The notes under the pieces: generated by a model
The model's database searches: none
Told to the model about the DNA's origin: nothing
The model's input: only the letters and a program-made list of their open reading frames with translations
IMG/VR virus record: IMGVR_UViG_3300025425_000192
Coordinates: 1-21,368 of that record
Origin: a virus
Direction: 5' to 3' (one strand)
Length of the DNA stretch: 21,368 nt
Shown here: positions 612 through 8,746 of the stretch, piece by piece
Layout of the letters: every line of letters begins with the position of its first letter
Position numbering within the stretch: the stretch's first letter is position 1
Translations under genes and position numbers: made by a program

Positions 612-2525
612 TTATTCGACAATGTCAAAATCTCCCCAGCTAGGGCCTATCTCAATATCGCACTTGTTAGGCACCGATATCTTGATGGCGTTCTGCATCA
701 TGACCGCAAGTTCCTTGGCCTGTTCCACCGACTTCACGCTAAACGCCAGTTCGTCATGGACTTGCAGCAAAGGCACCGTTCCGCTCTTGTAAACGTCAAC
801 CATGGCCTGCTTTGTCATGTCCGCAGCACTCGACTGGATTAGCCGGTTGAGCGCTTTATAGGTGTAGGCGCGCTTGAGTCTTGTGGTAGGCCCGTAGGCG
901 TTCACAGCGTCCTGATACGACATTGCTTTGTTCATAGCGAACTCATCGGGTTCCCACATATGAAAGCGTGCCTTACGGCCTCCCAGAGAGCGCAGAGAGC
1001 CACTAGATCTCTTGTCTTCTAACGATCTTTGTACGCCTTGCATCAGTCCTTTAACAAAAGGCACCCGGGCGTGGTACTGCTTAGTCAGTTCTTTGGCCTC
1101 GGGCAGCGTTATATCTAGCTGCTCCGACAGGTTAGTCACCCCCATTCCGTACATCATCGCAAGGTTTATCACCTTGGCCTGTTTACGTGGGATGTCCGCC
1201 ATCTCCGCTACCATCGTATGGAAGTCCATGTCGGGGTTTTCGTTATAGGCTTCTACAAACTCAGCTACTCCGGGCATATCCATGTTCTTATACTCGGCAA
1301 ACGCATGCGCGTAATGAACCAAGATCCGTGGTTCCTGCTGCGAGAAGTCTACGGCCGCCCACTGCTCCCCCTCTTCTGGTAGGAATAGCCTGCGGATCAT
1401 AGGGCCAAGCTCCGGGTCGCGGGCCGGGATCTGTTGTAGGTTAGGGTTGTTCATTGAAAGGCGGCCTGAGACGGCACCTCCGCCCTCTGAGCGTAGCTGA
1501 TTGATGTGCCCATGCACTCGGCCATCTGTTGCCACAAAGCGCAGGATGGAGTCGATAAACGTGCCTTGTATCTTGTTCAGGTTGCGGGCCTCAACGATCC
1601 GTTGCGCGAGTTCCGCGGGGTGATCTTCTAGAAACTTCTTAGTGAAGCTTGGAGACCCTTTCTCGGTTTTGGGATAGGGGATGCTTGCGGCATCAAAAGC
1701 CTTGGCTATTGAAGCGCCTGCCCAGATCTCTACCTCTTTGCCGGCTATTTCTTTTATGCGCTTGCGCACAAGCTTCTCGCGCCGCATCAGTTCCTGCTTT
1801 GTACGCTCCGCCTGATCCACGTCCACGCGTATTCCGCGCTCAGTCATCTCAACCAGACAGGGAAGCAGGTCGGTCTCTACCGTCCAGATCGCCCACAGGT
1901 CTTCTTTGTTAAGGATGTTTCGGAAGTGATCCCACAAATCTAAGGTAATCTCCGCATCGACCTCCGCGTAAGGGCCAACATACATAGCGGGCAACTTCCA
2001 CATTTCAGCCTTCGGATCCACGCCAAACTCACGAGCAGCCTCGGTCAGCATCTTCTCGGACTTAGTTTTACCAAGGTAGTCGTAGCACAAAGCGTTCAAG
2101 CTATAAGAGAAACGGTTCTCGTCAATCAACGCCGCAGTCATCATGGTATCGATGATGCGTCCGTTTACGGTAAACCCCATTCTCCGTATCCACCCAAGGT
2201 CGTACTGAGCGTTATGCATGATCTTGTCTGCGGGTGAAGCAAAGATCTTTTGCAGATACTTGTTGATGATGCGCTTGTCCATGTTGCCGCCGCCGGCATG
2301 CGCTACGGGGAAGTAACCTTTCCAACCCGCTACAGCAATGGCGTAACCCACGACTTCACCGTTTCCGGTAGCCCAACCCGGCCCCATGGTTTTTATGCCC
2401 GGGTCGCGTGTTTCTACGTCAATTGCAATTTCTTTAGCATCAAGGATGCCTTCGGGAAAAGGATGCTCCGGTGGAAGCCAGTCAGACTTTGGGGGGAACA
2501 TTGCCACCTGTAATCGATTAACCAC
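612..2525 (-). CDS. polA: Family A DNA polymerase with 3'-5' exonuclease, Leu at the '762' position
   Basis: Replicative phage DNA polymerase, 637 aa from the chosen start. The proofreading domain is intact: IAIDVETRD (D36, E38), HNAQYD (104-109) and YAEVDAEIT (Y186, D190). The polymerase domain carries SGRLSMNNPNLQQIP (353-367), motif A DFSQQEPR (393-400), motif B RKQAKVINLAMMYG (447-460) and motif C VHDE (589-592). In motif B the residue matching E. coli Phe762 is Leu455, and the next Gly is Ala. There is no 5'-nuclease domain, as expected for T7-type enzymes. I chose GTG 2525 because TTGGAGA lies 7 bases upstream and the start overlaps the stop of the zinc-ribbon gene by 8 bases. A longer ATG form from 2597 is possible, but would lie wholly over that gene. 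It ends the primase-helicase-zinc ribbon-polymerase run. Confidence 0.95.
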   Translation of the reverse strand: MVNRLQVAMFPPKSDWLPPEHPFPEGILDAKEIAIDVETRDPGIKTMGPGWATGNGEVVGYAIAVAGWKGYFPVAHAGGGNMDKRIINKYLQKIFASPADKIMHNAQYDLGWIRRMGFTVNGRIIDTMMTAALIDENRFSYSLNALCYDYLGKTKSEKMLTEAAREFGVDPKAEMWKLPAMYVGPYAEVDAEITLDLWDHFRNILNKEDLWAIWTVETDLLPCLVEMTERGIRVDVDQAERTKQELMRREKLVRKRIKEIAGKEVEIWAGASIAKAFDAASIPYPKTEKGSPSFTKKFLEDHPAELAQRIVEARNLNKIQGTFIDSILRFVATDGRVHGHINQLRSEGGGAVSGRLSMNNPNLQQIPARDPELGPMIRRLFLPEEGEQWAAVDFSQQEPRILVHYAHAFAEYKNMDMPGVAEFVEAYNENPDMDFHTMVAEMADIPRKQAKVINLAMMYGMGVTNLSEQLDITLPEAKELTKQYHARVPFVKGLMQGVQRSLEDKRSSGSLRSLGGRKARFHMWEPDEFAMNKAMSYQDAVNAYGPTTRLKRAYTYKALNRLIQSSAADMTKQAMVDVYKSGTVPLLQVHDELAFSVKSVEQAKELAVMMQNAIKISVPNKCDIEIGPSWGDFDIVE

Positions 2526-2697
2526 GGTCGCTTCTCCAAGTTTTCTCTCGAAGAATCGCTTCGGAGAAATGTTTGCACAAGGCGCAGTACCAACCAAGCC
2601 TCTCGTTGATTTGTGTATTGACTACAGCAGTAGCTTTCTTGTCGCCGCATTTCTCGCAGGTGTTGTAATACATCGGATCAAAATCTTCTTTTTTCAT
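2518..2697 (-). CDS. 59-aa zinc-ribbon protein between helicase and polymerase
   Basis: A short protein with two Cys pairs, CEKC (C14, C17) and CALC (C38, C41), spaced 20 residues apart: a classic four-Cys zinc ribbon. Such ribbons bind DNA or dock onto polymerase and helicase partners; the actual partner here is not shown. Context supports a real gene. Its ATG overlaps the helicase stop as ATGA (2697-2694), and its last 8 bases contain the ribosome-coupled GTG start of the DNA polymerase gene. So the helicase, this protein and the polymerase form an unbroken chain of overlapping genes. No Shine-Dalgarno core is evident directly upstream, consistent with re-initiation after the helicase. It is hidden by a longer alternative start of the polymerase frame. 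Confidence 0.85.
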   Translation of the reverse strand: MKKEDFDPMYYNTCEKCGDKKATAVVNTQINERLGWYCALCKHFSEAILREKTWRSDRG

Positions 2698-4199
2698 AAG
2701 TCATAGGCTCTTGAAAAATCATCGGGATCTATTAAAAATAGATTTTCTTTTGTTCGGGTAACTCCCACATAGAAAACTCGGTGAAGGTCATCTATCTGAG
2801 AATTTCTAATCGCCGCATAAGTAAGGTCGGTTAACAAGACAACGTTATCGGCTTCACCGCCCTTTGTGCCGTGAATCGTGGACAGTTTAATACGGGGAAC
2901 GGCGTTAAACTTTTCTCCTTTGCGCAGTAGAGCCGTAATATAAAGACGATCGTTCCCGGTAATCTTGTCCATGGCTTCGTGCCATATCAAGCTGTCGTCT
3001 ACGAGAAGCCCATAATTTTTTTGTAAAAGATCAATGGTAAACAACTGGTCTTCGGGGGCGTCTATTTTCTTCATGCCGCGCGCAATATGCACGTTGTTAC
3101 CGTACATAAAGCTGTACACAACCTGTGCGGCTTTAAGCGTAATGGGGCGTCCCTTCCGCATTTGTTCCCATGCATTTACCGCAATAGAAAGTCTTTCTGA
3201 AATGGACCGTGAGCCGTTGCGTTCGAATAAGTATCCATTAGTCTTTAACTGAGCCGCTACGTCGGAGAGCATGTAGTTAGCCTGAGCCATTATTAGCCAC
3301 GTGCCCTCCGACATATCCAGTTCGGCTATGTCCGACATCCTCGTTACGGATCCTTCTTCTTCCTTCGGTTTATACTGTTTAGGAAAACGACGGTGGATTC
3401 TTTTGGCGATGCCTTCTGCAATCCGGTGTACTGACCGAGGTATACGGTAGGATTGACTAAGCACTTCGCTACCCCCGGGGAGGTTGATGAAATGGTCAAC
3501 GTCTGCGCCTGCCCACCGGTAGATCGCTTGGTCGTCATCTCCAGCACAATACATTCGTTGTGATTTTTTATCGATGGCATGGGCTATATCCCATTGTAGG
3601 GGTGAAAGATCTTGAGCCTCGTCTAAGAAACAAAGTTTAAACTCGGGGCATATACGAGGCGCTTCATGAGCAAACATTTCTAACATGTCGGTGTAATCTA
3701 ATACCCCGTGGAATTGCTTGTATGAACGGTACGCTTCAGCAATATATTCAACTTCTGGCCAAGACTCCTCGATATTAGTCTGGTTATATTCGCTGCGTAG
3801 TTCTGTTTTTTTTAAACGTGCCAGATTGATAACGCCCAATACAGGATGCTCGGCTGCCTTGGTCAACGTGTCCCCAAAGTCATAGTGTGGCCGAGTATGT
3901 AATTGTACTTTTATCTTTTTAGACAGGTCGTCGAAATGTTCCTTCGACATCAAGTCCTTGTCTCGAATACCAAGCAGCCGGTATGACAAACTGTGCAGTG
4001 TACGAAAGTAAGGCAAGTCTTCTTTTTCATCCAAGTTAAAACGGCGAGCGGCGCGTTCCTTCGCACCGCTTGCGGCCTTTCGGGTGAAAGCTAAGAAACC
4101 AATTTCTCTAGGGGACATGCCCCCTTCCAAAGCTTGGTCTACGTAGTTAAGTAGCGTAGTTGTTTTCCCTGTGCCCGGTGGTCCAAAAATTCTAAACAT
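2694..4199 (-). CDS. SF1 UvrD/Rep-like DNA helicase
   Basis: ATP-driven DNA unwinding enzyme of superfamily 1A, 501 aa. All the main motifs are present: Walker A GPPGTGKT (6-13), Ia FLAFTRKAA (35-43), Ic FRTLHSL (65-71), Walker B FLDEAQD (191-197), III GDDDQAIYRWAGA (220-232), IV LSQSYRIP (247-254), V STIHGTKGGEAD (440-451) and VI VFYVGVTRTKENL (475-487). It is shorter than bacterial UvrD (about 720 aa), so the accessory 1B and 2B subdomains are reduced. The ATG shares one base with the primase stop (TAATG), and the stop overlaps the zinc-ribbon start (ATGA). With no DnaB- or gp4-type helicase in the window, this is a candidate replicative or accessory helicase of the phage. Confidence 0.93.
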   Translation of the reverse strand: MFRIFGPPGTGKTTTLLNYVDQALEGGMSPREIGFLAFTRKAASGAKERAARRFNLDEKEDLPYFRTLHSLSYRLLGIRDKDLMSKEHFDDLSKKIKVQLHTRPHYDFGDTLTKAAEHPVLGVINLARLKKTELRSEYNQTNIEESWPEVEYIAEAYRSYKQFHGVLDYTDMLEMFAHEAPRICPEFKLCFLDEAQDLSPLQWDIAHAIDKKSQRMYCAGDDDQAIYRWAGADVDHFINLPGGSEVLSQSYRIPRSVHRIAEGIAKRIHRRFPKQYKPKEEEGSVTRMSDIAELDMSEGTWLIMAQANYMLSDVAAQLKTNGYLFERNGSRSISERLSIAVNAWEQMRKGRPITLKAAQVVYSFMYGNNVHIARGMKKIDAPEDQLFTIDLLQKNYGLLVDDSLIWHEAMDKITGNDRLYITALLRKGEKFNAVPRIKLSTIHGTKGGEADNVVLLTDLTYAAIRNSQIDDLHRVFYVGVTRTKENLFLIDPDDFSRAYDL

Positions 4200-5743
4200 T
4201 AGAAAGGAGCCTCTTTATCGCTACCGATGTTTTTTGCCTTTACGGACATGCTACTAACGTCATACGCCGGGATTCCCCAGACTCGGACGCTCTTTCCTGC
4301 AACCTTCATGACCGTAGACTGACCGTTTATGTCCCGCAGGCGCTGTGCAATCTTATGGCCTTTGTATTCAAAGAAACGATTCTTGTGCAAGTAAGCCGTG
4401 AAATCTTTCAGGCGGAAATACGTACGCCCTTCATCTTCATCTGTATACGGACGCCGCAAGATTATTTCTTCTTTATTCTCGGCTTGCTGCATTACCGTAC
4501 AAAACTCTTCCAGATGGTCATAGAACTGTCCTGCAAAGCTTGCGTCTTGAGACACTTCAACGATAGCGCCGTCAGTTTCAGACATCTCGGTCAACAACTG
4601 GTTTATGCGTCCTTCCCACATCTGCTTACTTACACTGCGCGGCATGAAGTTTAGCTGCTCAACGCAAGATCTCTGGAACGCGGCTTGATTCATCAAAGCC
4701 TCTGTATCCATTTCCAGCGGCTGCCCATTGACGTCCATGAACCAGACAGGAGGCGTGCTGTTGTACTTGCGCAGGTTAGCGATAGTCGCACCGGATACCG
4801 CAGCTTCAATACCGTACTTACGCGTTTTGCATAAGTCTGCATTGCAGTAATCACAGATGGGTGCATCTTTACATTTGTAAGCGTAATCTTTTTTGCCGAG
4901 TTGCTTGGCTACAAGGTTCACTTCGTTCAACGGAAGAGGTGGATCAAAATAACGTGCGTTATACACGAGTATCTCTGACTCCCAAGAGTCTGGAAACGCT
5001 TTACGAAGGTAAACGCCTACGTTAAACAAACCATTGTTACGCCCGCCCTCGCTAATCTTCTGCGAGCAAAGAGTCTGCAAACACGGCGGTCCATCCTTTA
5101 CGATGATGTTAGTTTCTTCTTTAGCTACGGTCAGTGACTGTATCTGATCCGGGTCTTGCGCATATGTTTCGTGAAGCGCAAAGAATTCTTCGATCGTACC
5201 GGACTGCCCATCATCTTTAATGACGTAACGAAGTCCCTCCTCTGCATCGTAGTACGGAAGGTTAAGAAAGTTACCCACGTCCCCACGTTCAAGGAAGAGC
5301 TTGATTTGCTTAGGAAATATCTCACAACCACCGTAGCCCATCTCGGCTGCAATGTGCTGCAAGGTATCTTGCATTTGTTTAGCGCTAATCCAGTCGGTAG
5401 TAAACAGAAAACAATGCGCACCCCCTGACTTGCTGCGGCAAACAACAAGCGGGATCTTCATGCGTCTAATTTTCTCAACTAACTCTAGGTGATCAAGAGG
5501 GTACTGATCTATGTCGATGCAGCCCCACTTACAATTATTGTCCTCGTTTATAGGTATGATGCCTATCGCATCACCCTTACCGGAGAGGTGTCCTTCCCAA
5601 GTTGCGTCGTTTCTGGGTTGTTTTAGTACCGTAGCTTTACCGGTGTTCTTTCCGTTCTGTGCCTTGCGGTCAATTCGATATGTGCCGTATGCCTGTTGTA
5701 GACCGTCGAAAATTCCCGCAAATTTCTTTGCGTTATCTGACAT
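4199..5743 (-). CDS. Archaeo-eukaryotic-type primase (TOTE-like AEP domain) with Cys cluster
   Basis: Probable primase or primase-polymerase of 514 aa. The catalytic core shows the archaeo-eukaryotic primase signature: metal-binding DID at 77-79 (WGCIDIDQYP), SKSGGAH at 104-110 with the conserved His, and EIFPKQ at 141-146 followed by GNFLNLPYY. This is the layout of the AEP domain found in TOTE conflict systems and many phages. A helical middle follows, with C221, C226 and a cluster at C291, C297, C300 and C305 (CDYC, then LC before RKYGI), suggesting a zinc or iron-sulfur site. The C-terminal 100 residues look like a winged helix. No helicase motif is fused; the next gene supplies one and shares a base with this stop (TAATG). 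GGGTGA lies just upstream of the ATG. An intrinsic terminator precedes the gene. Confidence 0.85.
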   Translation of the reverse strand: MSDNAKKFAGIFDGLQQAYGTYRIDRKAQNGKNTGKATVLKQPRNDATWEGHLSGKGDAIGIIPINEDNNCKWGCIDIDQYPLDHLELVEKIRRMKIPLVVCRSKSGGAHCFLFTTDWISAKQMQDTLQHIAAEMGYGGCEIFPKQIKLFLERGDVGNFLNLPYYDAEEGLRYVIKDDGQSGTIEEFFALHETYAQDPDQIQSLTVAKEETNIIVKDGPPCLQTLCSQKISEGGRNNGLFNVGVYLRKAFPDSWESEILVYNARYFDPPLPLNEVNLVAKQLGKKDYAYKCKDAPICDYCNADLCKTRKYGIEAAVSGATIANLRKYNSTPPVWFMDVNGQPLEMDTEALMNQAAFQRSCVEQLNFMPRSVSKQMWEGRINQLLTEMSETDGAIVEVSQDASFAGQFYDHLEEFCTVMQQAENKEEIILRRPYTDEDEGRTYFRLKDFTAYLHKNRFFEYKGHKIAQRLRDINGQSTVMKVAGKSVRVWGIPAYDVSSMSVKAKNIGSDKEAPF

Positions 5744-5753
5744 TATTTCACCC

Positions 5754-5779
5754 GAAAAATAGGGGCGCGAACGCCCCCT
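5754..5779 (-). terminator. Intrinsic terminator with UUCG loop
   Basis: Reading leftward, GGGGCG-TTCG-CGCCCC forms a six-pair, all-GC stem (extendable by one G-U pair) with the very stable UUCG tetraloop, followed by TATTTTT. It lies 7 bases past the stop of the SSB-like gene and just ahead of the primase gene. It should end or reduce transcription between the two, leaving primase, helicase and polymerase dependent on read-through. Confidence 0.85.
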
Positions 5780-5785
5780 TATTGT

Positions 5786-6625
5786 CTACCAAGGAATATC
5801 TTGGTTTTCTGCGGCGGCTTCGTCTGTATGCTTCACGCTAACCTCGCCTTTAAGAATGCTTTCGGCGAATTTTTTAGCTTGCACGTAAAGAGTCGGGTCA
5901 GAGACAACTTTGTCTAAGCTGATTTCCCAACCGTGCCAAGAACCCTTCGAATTTTCTTCCGAAGTAGTCTTGAGGGCATAGACGTGACTAAAGCGCGGTG
6001 GCGTAAACGGACCGTTCTTGCCAATCATATTTCTGCTTTGGACCATAGAGTTCCACTTGCGCGACTTCTTTAACTGCGTTGACTTCATTGCAACCAAGGC
6101 AAACTGCGAAGTGCCATCGGGGTTCAGGATGATAACGAAATGCTGATGAGTTTCCTCTAAGTAGCTTCCGTCTCCGCCTGTAACGTATTCCCGGTTGTCG
6201 TCTTTACTGCGTTCTGTCGGAGGACGCTTGTCTTCCGGGGTATAGATGTTAACCGGTGCGCCGGAACCTGCGCCACGGGGCATCCATTCTATGAAGCGGC
6301 GCTGATATGCGCAAGGTATTACGTTTACGCCATCCTTGCCTTTATACACTTCGCCAGTAACGGTGTTGTATATATCACCGGCTTTGGCATTTTCTAGCTC
6401 ATCCAGAGTAGGATCCTGTCGGCTAAGAACCTTAAGGAACGGAAGGGCAAGATCGTCTTGTCCTACGTTTTCTAAGCCCACACCGGCGTCTGCTTCGAAC
6501 ATATTCATGTCCACGACGGCTAGTTGAGTAGTAGCTTCAGCTTTTGCTCCGGCTACGGTTACTTCAGCTTTTGCTCCGGCTACGGTTACTTCTGCGTTTT
6601 CTTTTACTGCTTCTGCTTTAGTCAT
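5786..6625 (-). CDS. Candidate single-stranded-DNA-binding protein with acidic DIPW tail
   Basis: 279-aa protein of a family I associate with phage replication clusters but cannot name securely. The last residues (EAAAENQDIPW) mimic the acidic -DIPF tail by which bacterial SSBs recruit partner proteins, here with a terminal Trp. The body (about 50-250) is rich in short strands with many aromatic and basic residues (YQRRFIEWMPRG, KSRKWNSMVQSR), compatible with an OB-type fold. The N-terminal 35 residues are Ala/Glu/Lys-rich and hold two near-identical copies of a 9-residue unit from a 27-base tandem repeat. ATG 6625 has AAGGG 10 bases upstream. It sits behind the 189-aa gene with a 5-base gap and is followed by a strong terminator, which would favour higher expression than the enzymes downstream. 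The SSB role is inference. Confidence 0.6.
   Translation of the reverse strand: MTKAEAVKENAEVTVAGAKAEVTVAGAKAEATTQLAVVDMNMFEADAGVGLENVGQDDLALPFLKVLSRQDPTLDELENAKAGDIYNTVTGEVYKGKDGVNVIPCAYQRRFIEWMPRGAGSGAPVNIYTPEDKRPPTERSKDDNREYVTGGDGSYLEETHQHFVIILNPDGTSQFALVAMKSTQLKKSRKWNSMVQSRNMIGKNGPFTPPRFSHVYALKTTSEENSKGSWHGWEISLDKVVSDPTLYVQAKKFAESILKGEVSVKHTDEAAAENQDIPW
6534..6587 (-). repeat. 27-base tandem repeat, two copies, in frame
   Basis: Two adjacent 27-base copies (6534-6560 and 6561-6587) differ at one base and are followed by 9 bases that begin a third. They encode a repeated Ala/Val/Lys-rich 9-residue unit at the N terminus of the SSB-like protein. The near identity at DNA level points to recent duplication by slippage. 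Confidence 0.9.
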
Positions 6626-6630
6626 AATGA

Positions 6631-7200
6631 TTAACCCTTTTTAATATTAGCTCGTTGACCTACATATGCCCCGAATATATCCATGGGGAACTCGTTACCC
6701 GATTCAACCTGATCCCTCACAAACGCTTTAAGAGTTTGTGGGTGGATATCTCTTTTCTGCTCCGGGGAGAACCCGGCTTCCGTAGTAAGTGAGACAAGAC
6801 TTTCTGCCAGACTTTCTTCGCCACGACCAAACTGACACGTAACAACATTTTTGATAATGTCGTCATAGCCGTTTTCCTTAAGCCAACTAAAGGCTTTGTC
6901 GCGGTTATCTACTTTGATATATGCACCGTAGGTAGGTTTAAGCTCTACTTTGGAACCATCATCTAGTTCTATCTTAGAGACGCCTATCTCGTGCAGTAAT
7001 GCAGGAAGGTCTTCATCGGTAAGTTTCAGCAGGTCTTTCTTAGTTTGCTTAAGGGTGTCCTCAAGTTTTAAGACTTCGTCCTGCTTATTGCGAACAGCTC
7101 TTGCAAGCTCTGCAATGGTTGATACGCCGCTGGTATCGAGGGATTCCATAGAGGAAGCTGCGGCTTGATCGGCTTCCATGGTATCGAACAAATTACTCAT
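6631..7200 (-). CDS. Conserved phage protein with N-terminal coiled coil, function unknown
   Basis: 189-aa soluble protein. Residues about 25-65 form a charged coiled coil (ELARAVRNKQDEVLKLEDTL). A compact domain follows with strand-like segments around KIELDDGSKVELKPTYGAYI, the segment RDKAFSWLKENGYDDIIKN, and a C-terminal part with IHPQTLKAFVRDQ and FGAYVGQRANI. I recognise this as a recurring hypothetical protein of phage replication regions but know no function for it. I chose ATG 7200 over upstream starts because AAAGGAG lies 8 bases before it; a longer form from 7263 would put coding sequence into the promoter region. It is the first gene of the leftward replication operon and is 5 bases from the SSB-like gene. 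Confidence 0.8.
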   Translation of the reverse strand: MSNLFDTMEADQAAASSMESLDTSGVSTIAELARAVRNKQDEVLKLEDTLKQTKKDLLKLTDEDLPALLHEIGVSKIELDDGSKVELKPTYGAYIKVDNRDKAFSWLKENGYDDIIKNVVTCQFGRGEESLAESLVSLTTEAGFSPEQKRDIHPQTLKAFVRDQVESGNEFPMDIFGAYVGQRANIKKG

Positions 7201-7239
7201 AATGAGTCTCCTTTCGTGGTTAAAGGACTTTTTAGGCCC

Positions 7240-7268
7240 TTGCGATGTAAGATATTCTCGCATATAAT
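7240..7268 (+). promoter_or_regulatory. Rightward sigma70-like promoter for the SNF2 gene
   Basis: TTGCGA (7240-7245) and a perfect TATAAT (7263-7268) are separated by exactly 17 bases. Transcription would begin near 7275. That falls at or after the ATG at 7274 and therefore favours ATG 7298 as the SNF2 start. Confidence 0.6.
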
Positions 7269-7280
7269 CTCACATGTCAA
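7252..7280 (-). promoter_or_regulatory. Leftward sigma70-like promoter for the replication operon
   Basis: On the minus strand a perfect TTGACA (bases 7280-7275) is followed after 17 bases by GAATAT (7257-7252), a weak -10. Transcription would start near 7245, giving an untranslated leader of about 45 bases before ATG 7200 and its AAAGGAG site. It overlaps the rightward promoter almost completely. Confidence 0.45.
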
Positions 7281-7297
7281 CTAATTTTGTGGTCGCT

Positions 7298-8746
7298 ATG
7301 TATACATTTAAAACAACGCCCTATCAACACCAGCAAGAAGTCTATGACAAATCTTGCGAAGAGAAGTATTACGCCTTGCTTATGGAAATGGGTACAGGCA
7401 AATCAAAAGTAGCTATCGACACGATGGGCTATCTATTCGAGAAGAAAGAGATTAACACGGCTTTGGTGATTGCGCCAAAAGGCGTATATGACAACTGGTT
7501 CTTGAAAGAAATCCCAGTTCATTTGCCCGAAAGAATCAAAACACTAATGGTTCGATGGCAGCCAAACTTCACTAAAAAGTTTACAGAAGACATAACTAAA
7601 TTAGCTTTGAGGGAAGAAGACGACGACTCCTTGCACATTCTGGTTATGAACATTGAAGCGTTGTCCACGAAGAAAGGTGCGGCGTCTGCGCTTCGTTATC
7701 TGGAGCTTAACCCGGACAATATGGTCATCGTAGACGAAAGCACTACGATAAAGAACCGGGCAGCAAAACGTACCAAGACTGTTATAGATCTTGGCAGAGC
7801 CGCTAAATACAGGCGTATTCTGACAGGAAGCCCTATTACCAAGTCGCCCATGGACTTGTTCAGTCAGTGCGCTTTCTTAAGCAGCAAAGCACTTGGGTTC
7901 AGCAACTTCTACGCGTTCCAGAGCCGTTATGCGGTATTGCAAAAGCGAACCATGGGACACAGAAGCTTCCAAAAGCTTGTCGGATACAGGCGTCTGGACG
8001 AGCTTAGTGAAAAGCTTGAGACCTTTAGTGCGCGCATACTAAAGCGCGATTGTCTGGACCTTCCGGACAAAATCTACATGTCTCGCGTCGTAGAATTGTC
8101 AGACGAGCAGGTCTCTGTCTACAACCAAATGAAAGAATTGGCGTTAGCTCAAGTAGCCAATGGAGAGCTTGCAACAACGGCGTCCATCCTTACTCAGCTA
8201 ATGCGCTTGCAACAAATAGTTTGCGGTCATCTTCGAACAGATGACGGTGAGATACAGGAACTAAAGAATTCTAGGCTTTCTGCTTTGATGGAGATAGCCG
8301 AAGAAGTACAGGGTAAGGCCATAATTTGGGCAACGTGGACACACGATATCCAAGCGATAGCTCCGGCCCTGCGCGACCGTTACGGAGACGAAGCAGTCGC
8401 AACATACTACGGAGAAACGCCGCAGGAAGAACGGCAGGAGATTGTTACTCGGTTTCAAGATGAGGAATCAGAGTTGCGCTTTTTTGTCGGACAACCTAGA
8501 ACGGGAGGGTACGGTATTACTCTGACCGCCGCAGACACTATGGTCTACTACTCTAATTCTTACGATTTAGAAATCCGGTTACAGTCAGAAGATCGTGCGC
8601 ACCGTATCGGGCAAACAAAATCAGTTACGTACATTGATCTTGTGACACCCGATACGACGGACGAGATGATATTAGACGCCCTTCGAAGAAAAATTAACAT
8701 AGCCAGCACCGTTCTCAATGAAGATTTCGGTGACTGGCTGCGTTAA
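7298..8746 (+). CDS. SNF2-family SF2 helicase/ATPase
   Basis: DNA-dependent ATPase of the SNF2 branch of superfamily 2, 482 aa and the only rightward gene. Motifs: I MGTGKS (31-36), Ia VIAPKG, II DEST (146-149, in place of the usual DEAH), III LTGSP (175-179), V TGGYGITL (402-409) and VI QSEDRAHRIGQ (429-439), the last being typical of SNF2. Phage relatives are usually annotated as helicases in replication or recombination; DNA translocation without strand separation is also possible. I chose ATG 7298 (MYTFKTTPYQHQ) because the predicted promoter would initiate near 7275, past the ATG at 7274. The ribosome site is weak in either case. The TAA overlaps the stop of the convergent 1245-aa gene, and no terminator separates them. 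Confidence 0.9.
   Translation: MYTFKTTPYQHQQEVYDKSCEEKYYALLMEMGTGKSKVAIDTMGYLFEKKEINTALVIAPKGVYDNWFLKEIPVHLPERIKTLMVRWQPNFTKKFTEDITKLALREEDDDSLHILVMNIEALSTKKGAASALRYLELNPDNMVIVDESTTIKNRAAKRTKTVIDLGRAAKYRRILTGSPITKSPMDLFSQCAFLSSKALGFSNFYAFQSRYAVLQKRTMGHRSFQKLVGYRRLDELSEKLETFSARILKRDCLDLPDKIYMSRVVELSDEQVSVYNQMKELALAQVANGELATTASILTQLMRLQQIVCGHLRTDDGEIQELKNSRLSALMEIAEEVQGKAIIWATWTHDIQAIAPALRDRYGDEAVATYYGETPQEERQEIVTRFQDEESELRFFVGQPRTGGYGITLTAADTMVYYSNSYDLEIRLQSEDRAHRIGQTKSVTYIDLVTPDTTDEMILDALRRKINIASTVLNEDFGDWLR

Follow-up and report, generated by a model that had tools for sequence, protein, structure and literature searches.

A conserved phage gene module that pairs an archaeo-eukaryotic-type primase with an SF1A helicase and may replicate DNA without a ring helicase

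Gene content and conservation of the module

The stretch of DNA analyzed here (the window) comes from an aquatic phage and is the entire virus record IMGVR_UViG_3300025425_000192, 21,368 bases long; the system in question is a putative replication operon on its minus strand. In order, the operon comprises a DUF7307 (Pam3 gp33-like) protein as its first gene (6631-7263; Pfam and neighbourhood survey), a Pam3 gp34-like protein of 279 residues (5786-6625), an archaeo-eukaryotic primase (AEP) of 514 residues (4199-5743), a UvrD/PcrA-like helicase of superfamily 1A (SF1A) with 501 residues (2694-4199), a zinc ribbon of 59 residues (2518-2697) and a family A DNA polymerase (PolA; 612-2525 with a GTG start). 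A terminator-like hairpin (5761-5778, minus strand) lies between the gp34-like gene and the primase, and a SNF2-type superfamily 2 translocase, identified through Pfam, PHROGs and its neighbourhood, diverges on the plus strand (7274-8746). The first-pass annotation, made from the sequence alone, had recognized the AEP primase, the SF1 helicase, the zinc ribbon and the family A polymerase, and all four assignments are borne out by Pfam, PHROGs and motifs. The span it gave for this chain (2518-5743) leaves the polymerase outside, and it missed two core genes, those for the gp34-like protein and the SNF2 translocase, whose linkage to the module is no looser than that of PolA.

The same annotation took the end-to-end junctions of these genes as a sign of coupled translation. 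Two of the junctions are as described: in the sequence TAATG, the final base of the primase stop codon TAA (4201-4199) is also the first base of the helicase start codon ATG (4199-4197), and helicase and zinc ribbon overlap in ATGA at 2697-2694. The 8-base overlap between zinc ribbon and PolA (2525-2518) holds only for a polymerase start at GTG 2525; the frame is also open from TTG 2597, and the figure is thus uncertain. Overlaps of stop and start codons are frequent in phage operons and prove nothing by themselves. As a conserved trait, moreover, tight coupling is not supported, since primase and helicase overlap in just 34 of 62 testable relatives and are separated by 129-706 nucleotides in the other 28.

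The co-occurrence of the genes was surveyed in other contigs from three starting points; virus-contig records, the window included, may be fragments. A survey begun from the primase kept 80 of 266 viral loci, and wherever the contig left room the helicase was found downstream (78/78), together with the gp34-like gene (67/67), SNF2 on the other strand (61/61) and PolA (50/50). Because these loci are close relatives (66-100% identity), a second viral survey was begun from the helicase of phage DSL-LC04, of which 80 of 150 loci were kept; here primase (64/64), gp34-like gene (57/57), SNF2 on the opposite strand (50/50) and PolA (73/73) were again present wherever there was room for them. Finally, a helicase profile run over bacterial and archaeal genome contigs returned 65 loci, 42 of them scoring at least 260 bits and 23 scoring less, a cut chosen after the table had been seen. 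Among the stronger loci with room, primase accompanies the helicase in 36 of 37, the gp34-like gene in 26 of 28, SNF2 in 23 of 24 (in 18 cases oppositely oriented) and PolA in 21 of 24, whereas the weaker helicases have primase in 0/17, gp34-like gene in 0/16, SNF2 in 0/15 and PolA in 3/15. In two of these 36 loci the primase match is itself weak (L213, 39 bits; L216, 63 bits), and the misses are confined to L215 (no primase), L213 (no gp34-like gene, SNF2 or PolA), L216 (no gp34-like gene) and L199 and L201 (no PolA).

Of the 75 helicase-first loci (L095-L216) with a full set of six genes, 74 show one and the same gene order, and at least 23 of 25 phage records with the primase have a helicase match among the 30 matches listed of 107. 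Primase, helicase and PolA are thus linked in a conserved order, as the first-pass annotation had proposed should be checked, and catalytic residues that vary little or not at all among relatives put the identities of the proteins far beyond chance. On these sequence comparisons the module is real and widespread, with a primase-helicase-PolA core to which an SSB-like (single-stranded DNA-binding) protein, the gp34-like product, and SNF2 belong. Three of the loci (L182, L183, L198) lie in Pelagibacterales single-cell assemblies, which suggests SAR11 hosts for some relatives.

Primase, helicase and polymerase

The primase matches Pfam AEP-TOTE above cut-off (1e-12), PriCT_1 below it (0.0014) and the PHROGs 'primase' family over almost its full length (2.3e-98); PF22548 is present in 42 of 43 primase members. 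Residues 1-206 correspond to a Prim-Pol core of the CAPP/TOTE type and residues ~227-284 to a PriCT-1-like region. The AlphaFold2 model (predicted local distance difference test, pLDDT, 88.6) has a predicted template modelling score of only 0.49, which makes the placement of its domains uncertain, and the core itself superposes on the CAPP Prim-Pol structure with Z 20.5 (root-mean-square deviation, rmsd, 2.5; 186 residues aligned); a sequence profile recovers the same relationship at 3.9e-14. No aligned row has any residue other than D77, D79 and H110 at these positions (193, 193 and 194 of 199 rows, the rest being gaps), E141 is conserved too, and the DxD, SxH and third acidic motif occur within an AEP fold. 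By sequence, the protein can therefore be placed in the AEP superfamily, with the TOTE/CAPP type. Four cysteines, for which no other letter was seen (C221 in 195, C291 in 197, C300 in 196 and C305 in 196 of 199 rows), form a putative metal site, perhaps for zinc or an iron-sulphur cluster. Residues ~403-495 show moderate similarity to winged-helix and other DNA-binding proteins (Z 7.6 to a pCW3 relaxosome protein), so that a winged helix is only the likely reading of this part of the model. An AAA+ remnant in the C-terminus was also considered and set aside as too weak (SCCmec Cch, Z 6.8; SaPI Rep, Z 6.4; span 317-498, rmsd above 16).

The closest structural counterpart, the CAPP of Marinitoga (PDB 7nqd/7p9j), shares the AEP core fold and the DxD, H and EIFPKQ motifs, and is described as priming and extending in vitro, best with NTP plus dNTP (nucleoside and deoxynucleoside triphosphates) (PMC8211822). 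It differs in its N-terminal TPR region and its CRISPR setting (same source), whereas the phage protein has PriCT-1, the four cysteines and the likely winged-helix C-terminus. In domain composition the protein resembles RepE/RepS and PrimHYQ, which combine an AEP with PriCT-1 and a helix-turn-helix and have no fused helicase (Kazlauskas 2018, PMC5862659); these lack a helicase gene, while the phage primase comes with one of the SF1A type.

That helicase matches the Pfam UvrD-helicase family (5.6e-31) and a PcrA profile (8.5e-47), and carries Walker A, DExQD, GDDDQ and motifs V and VI; all 207 aligned rows have DExQD (motif II) and GDDDQ (motif III). Its motifs thus assign it to SF1A (UvrD/PcrA/Rep). 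An N-terminal Q motif and a full 2B domain are features of the cellular UvrD and PcrA enzymes. The phage protein begins right at motif I and aligns with the profile from PcrA residue 29 on, leaving no space for a Q motif, and fewer than 15 residues precede motif I in 106 of 172 distinct helicase copies; its 2B region is also short, with ~60 residues before motif V vs ~148 in PcrA. As judged from these sequence features, it does not appear to belong with UvrD/PcrA proper. In Rep, a shortened 2B relieves self-inhibition. A helicase scan made with MW202510 gave no match. A relative of the helicase (249 bits) occurs in an Archaeoglobaceae metagenome-assembled genome (L217), on a cellular-looking archaeal contig with no other gene of the module.

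PolA is a family A polymerase (DNA_pol_A 9.2e-62; DNA_pol_A_exo1 4.1e-14) with intact 3'-5' exonuclease motifs, and both the exonuclease and HDE motifs are kept across relatives; its best NCBIfam model, DpoZ_1, reaches 325 bits, under the cut-off of 500. In the residue alignment the position equivalent to E. coli 762 is a leucine (L455 in the GTG-started frame), as it is in 159 of the 160 PolA rows with a letter there. With its UvrD and SNF2 neighbours, the enzyme may be assigned to the Leu762 group, an assignment that rests on this residue and neighbourhood without rebuilding the published tree. Phages Pan1 and R5C have the same primase-helicase block with another PolA and may represent a natural polymerase swap. 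Two phages of Klebsiella and Acinetobacter (L087, L088), which carry adenylosuccinate synthetase genes of the 2-aminoadenine type, share the primase, the SF1 helicase and a Leu762 PolA. A perfect TTGACA-18-TATAAT lies at 628-599 on the minus strand, within the 3' end of the PolA gene and upstream of a small conserved open reading frame (ORF; 576-316) with a weak ribbon-helix-helix match.

The zinc ribbon (CxxC...GWYCxxC..F..AI.RE), which the first-pass annotation had counted as a member of the chain, does not keep that place. Only a sub-threshold family match was obtained (DUF5816, 0.0027), and the GWYC signature occurs in just 28 of 207 loci, all near relatives of the window (28/75 primase-first loci, 0/80 DSL-type, 0/42 genome and 0/10 phage-record loci); the primase, for its part, bears four invariant cysteines of its own. 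We therefore rejected the zinc ribbon as a core subunit and regard it as an accessory of close relatives. The remaining genes of the window concern ejection, tail, virion or lysis, or are without family match.

The SSB-like protein, aromatic tips and an intergenic hairpin

The product of 5786-6625 matches Pam3_Gp34 (PF23977) at 1.5e-64 and is predicted to be an OB-fold (oligonucleotide/oligosaccharide-binding) protein that binds single-stranded DNA. In a VIA comparison with the PDB, its AlphaFold2 model (pLDDT 88.3) retrieves the phiC31 recombination directionality factor (Z 8.7), BRCA2 (Z 6.6) and the RB69 gp32 core (Z 6.5), and then mostly SSB and RPA chains; OB folds that bind single-stranded DNA make up the majority of the matches listed. 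Set against the SSBs of the T7 type (gp2.5, DUF2815), which have an OB fold and a disordered acidic tail with an aromatic end, the case consists of the predicted fold (Z 8.7 and 6.5), Foldseek E-values above 0.04 and a tail ending ...QDIPW. T7 gp4 has a tail similar to that of gp2.5, and phiC31 gp3 presumably belongs with DUF2815. The DUF2815 protein Enc34 ORF6 is an SSB that resembles T7 gp2.5, whose acidic tail has been implicated in contacts with the T7 polymerase and primase-helicase (PMC5686142).

The window's primase ends in ...EAPF, and such endings in proline followed by Phe, Tyr or Trp recur in 131 of 163 distinct complete primases and 123 of 154 SSB-like proteins, as opposed to 0/167 helicases, 0/142 PolA, 0/102 SNF2 and 0/124 gp33-like proteins, and 2 of 1717 background ORFs. 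Both tips are present together in 140 of 186 loci. These counts come mostly from two large clades; with one representative per 60%-identity cluster, the ending is found in 8 of 32 primases and 16 of 32 SSB-like proteins, and any final aromatic residue in 16/32 and 27/32, respectively (background 60/1717). Strictly acidic primase tails were considered and discarded, since many end in KARSPF or TQRSPF.

Between the two genes that carry these tips, a sequence scan finds the hairpin GGGGGCG-TTCG-CGCCCCT-ATTTTT (5778-5761 plus tail). Terminator-like sites in the window alone are as numerous as in shuffled sequence (11 found vs 10.2 expected), so that the case for the hairpin rests on the relatives. 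There, a strict stem with T-run is present at 35 of 121 distinct SSB-like/primase junctions, and after 1/110 gp33-like genes, 0/146 primases, 0/161 helicases and 21/119 PolA genes, with 4/579 inside primases. When any 6-bp GC stem is allowed, it is seen at 61 of 122 of these junctions vs 5/110, 4/146 and 6/161 after the gp33-like, primase and helicase genes; it also follows 32/119 PolA genes and occurs in 27/579 cases inside primases.

A proposed replication module without a ring helicase

The first-pass annotation had seen no DnaB- or gp4-like enzyme, and this is upheld: the DnaB_C profile has no match in 25 relatives or in the window, itself a genome fragment. An earlier, overlapping set of 22 records gave one sub-cut-off DnaB match, in the distant MW202803 (L093); this record has an annotated DnaB-like gene nearby, no PolA and a primase matched over only 27% of the query, and is best taken as a contrast case. 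Searches for the DnaG zinc domain (0/22), D5_N/SF3 (0/25) and canonical SSB (PF00436; 0/25) were likewise negative among the relatives, these results covering the listed families only, with RecA-like or other helicases and host-helicase loaders outside them. In the complete circular genome of DSL-LC04 (OR003939), one primase, one UvrD-like helicase and one SNF2-type enzyme are annotated, and no further helicase or primase. A second replicative helicase or primase had been named in advance as evidence against the proposal. The module does contain a second helicase-like enzyme, SNF2, but proteins of this type reportedly translocate without separating strands (Keown 2022, PMC9069017). Judging from gene content, the module appears to lack the DnaB/gp4-type ring helicase of a T7-like replisome.

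The contention that this machinery is unlike the T7 model (gp4, gp5, gp2.5) holds in part. Both have a family A polymerase, an OB-fold SSB (here predicted) and an aromatic tip on that SSB, and the primase too ends in a T7/SSB-like aromatic tip; the module differs in having no ring helicase, no TOPRIM primase and no fused primase-helicase. Phage DSL-LC04, pelagiphages HTVC023P and HTVC027P and phage 023Pt_psg01 also resemble it, with primase, UvrD-type helicase and PolA annotated in one block; these lack the GWYC zinc ribbon, have small genes between the enzymes and carry primases 24-50% identical.

From the gene content, the conserved linkage, the intact catalytic residues, the tails and the hairpin we infer, with a probability of roughly 0.6, that this is the replication module of a tailed phage that works without a ring helicase. 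In such a module, the predicted OB-fold protein would coat single-stranded DNA, and the AEP primase would make primers by means of its CAPP-like core and may use the PriCT-1 and winged-helix domains to mark the origin or to open it. The SF1A helicase would open the fork; like UvrD-family enzymes it would presumably run along the leading-strand template in the 3'-5' direction. The proofreading Leu762 PolA would extend the primers and may assist by strand displacement, and the SNF2 translocase would clear or remodel the DNA ahead, all of them possibly acting as one physical replisome. The aromatic tips of primase and SSB-like protein might bind the same partner, with polymerase and helicase the likeliest candidates; with both tips on one dock, primer hand-off and coating of single-stranded DNA would be in competition, as they are in T7. 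Located downstream of the SSB-like gene, the hairpin would serve to provide much SSB and little of the enzymes. A bolder version, which we consider speculative and rather doubtful, is that of a ringless replisome in which an AEP primase and a T7-type SSB compete by look-alike aromatic tips for one dock next to a brake-less 3'-5' SF1A fork motor, so that a phage type among the most common in aquatic habitats would have assembled the tail-exchange logic of T7 out of unrelated components.

Several observations weigh against the proposed module. All Foldseek matches of the SSB-like model have E above 0.04, and VIA scores below 8 can reflect a common arrangement. Primase tails with the proline-aromatic ending are confined to 8 of 32 clusters, and their acidity is only mild, with an average net charge of -1.3 over the final 20 residues. 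PolA seems replaceable, being absent nearby in 3 of 24 genome loci, and in the Nanhaivirus phages Pan1 and R5C (L240, L241) it is a Phe762 enzyme 13-14 kb from the primase. In the Klebsiella and Acinetobacter relatives the SF1 helicase adjoins PolA several kb off the primase. Lastly, UvrD and PcrA are low-processivity repair helicases, and their relative could be an accessory here.

The module may also be genuine and yet already known, as the Leu762 Group II type of replisome in virioplankton with no new mechanism, a reading that we take seriously without favouring it. The association of PolA, UvrD and SNF2 has indeed been published: among 247 Leu762 Group II PolA genes, 68% had UvrD and 45% had SNF2 beside them, and the group made up 16.4% of PolA-contig reads (Nasko 2018, PMC6302109). 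The window's PolA is likewise a Leu762 enzyme with UvrD-like and SNF2-like genes next to it, and existing GenBank annotation already includes primase, helicase and PolA. On the other hand, the text consulted of PMC6302109 does not describe the primer-maker, the SSB-like protein, the gene order, the hairpin or the tail tips; its mentions of primase concern DnaG or primases generally, with no AEP named, and the word 'primase' occurs 0 times in PMC9069017, which reports PolAs capable of strand displacement in the vicinity of SNF2 genes. In a pelagiphage paper, PolA, a DEAD/DEAH helicase and primase serve as marker genes (PMC9599517). No description of the full module including the AEP was found in the literature covered, subscription papers being mostly outside the search. 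A CAPP/TOTE-type primase whose C-terminus is probably a winged helix and whose four cysteines are invariant is apparently new, and so, apparently, are the SSB-like member of the set, the aromatic tips on primase and SSB-like protein and the terminator-like hairpin between their genes.

We consider it unlikely that the SF1 helicase is an accessory engaged in restart, recombination or repair, with the fork opened by strand displacement by the Leu762 PolA, by SNF2 torque or by a captured host DnaB, in which case we would be dealing with a gene set and not with one ringless machine. Phages do capture host helicases. Against the idea, and with helicase loaders outside the families searched, the helicase is found together with the primase almost without exception and keeps motifs II and III throughout; as 2B acts as a brake, the shortening of this region is in keeping with a motor free of inhibition. 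In its favour, some viral PolAs near SNF2 genes displace strands in vitro, including two of five primer-extending Leu762 enzymes, and the authors propose that the polymerase itself parts the strands (PMC9069017); the processivity of UvrD is low (PMC6302109). That primase and helicase form a phage-carried defence or conflict system, with a TOTE- or CAPP-like primase and a GajB-like helicase, is suggested by the domain name AEP-TOTE and by PADLOC matches (CRISPR-associated PrimPol, 2.6e-5; GajB, 2.7e-23; ZorD-type SNF2, 1.6e-38) and is nonetheless very improbable, as these matches stem from shared helicase folds, the genes for a PolA with proofreading and for the SSB-like protein steadily accompany them, and no GajA, Cas or TOTE partner genes appear in the neighbourhoods listed, where only the TOTE domain name was matched and the partner genes were not searched specifically.

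If the proposed module does open and copy phage DNA, it would constitute a replisome whose helicase is an SF1A enzyme with a single motor and whose primase is of archaeal type, comprising five or six proteins and thus small enough for in vitro rebuilding. It resembles a phage type that contributed a large part of the viral reads with PolA in a Chesapeake survey (PMC6302109). Known through its polymerase and helicases, the module would thereby gain a primase and a candidate SSB, and would offer a direct test of whether or not tail competition evolved independently of T7.

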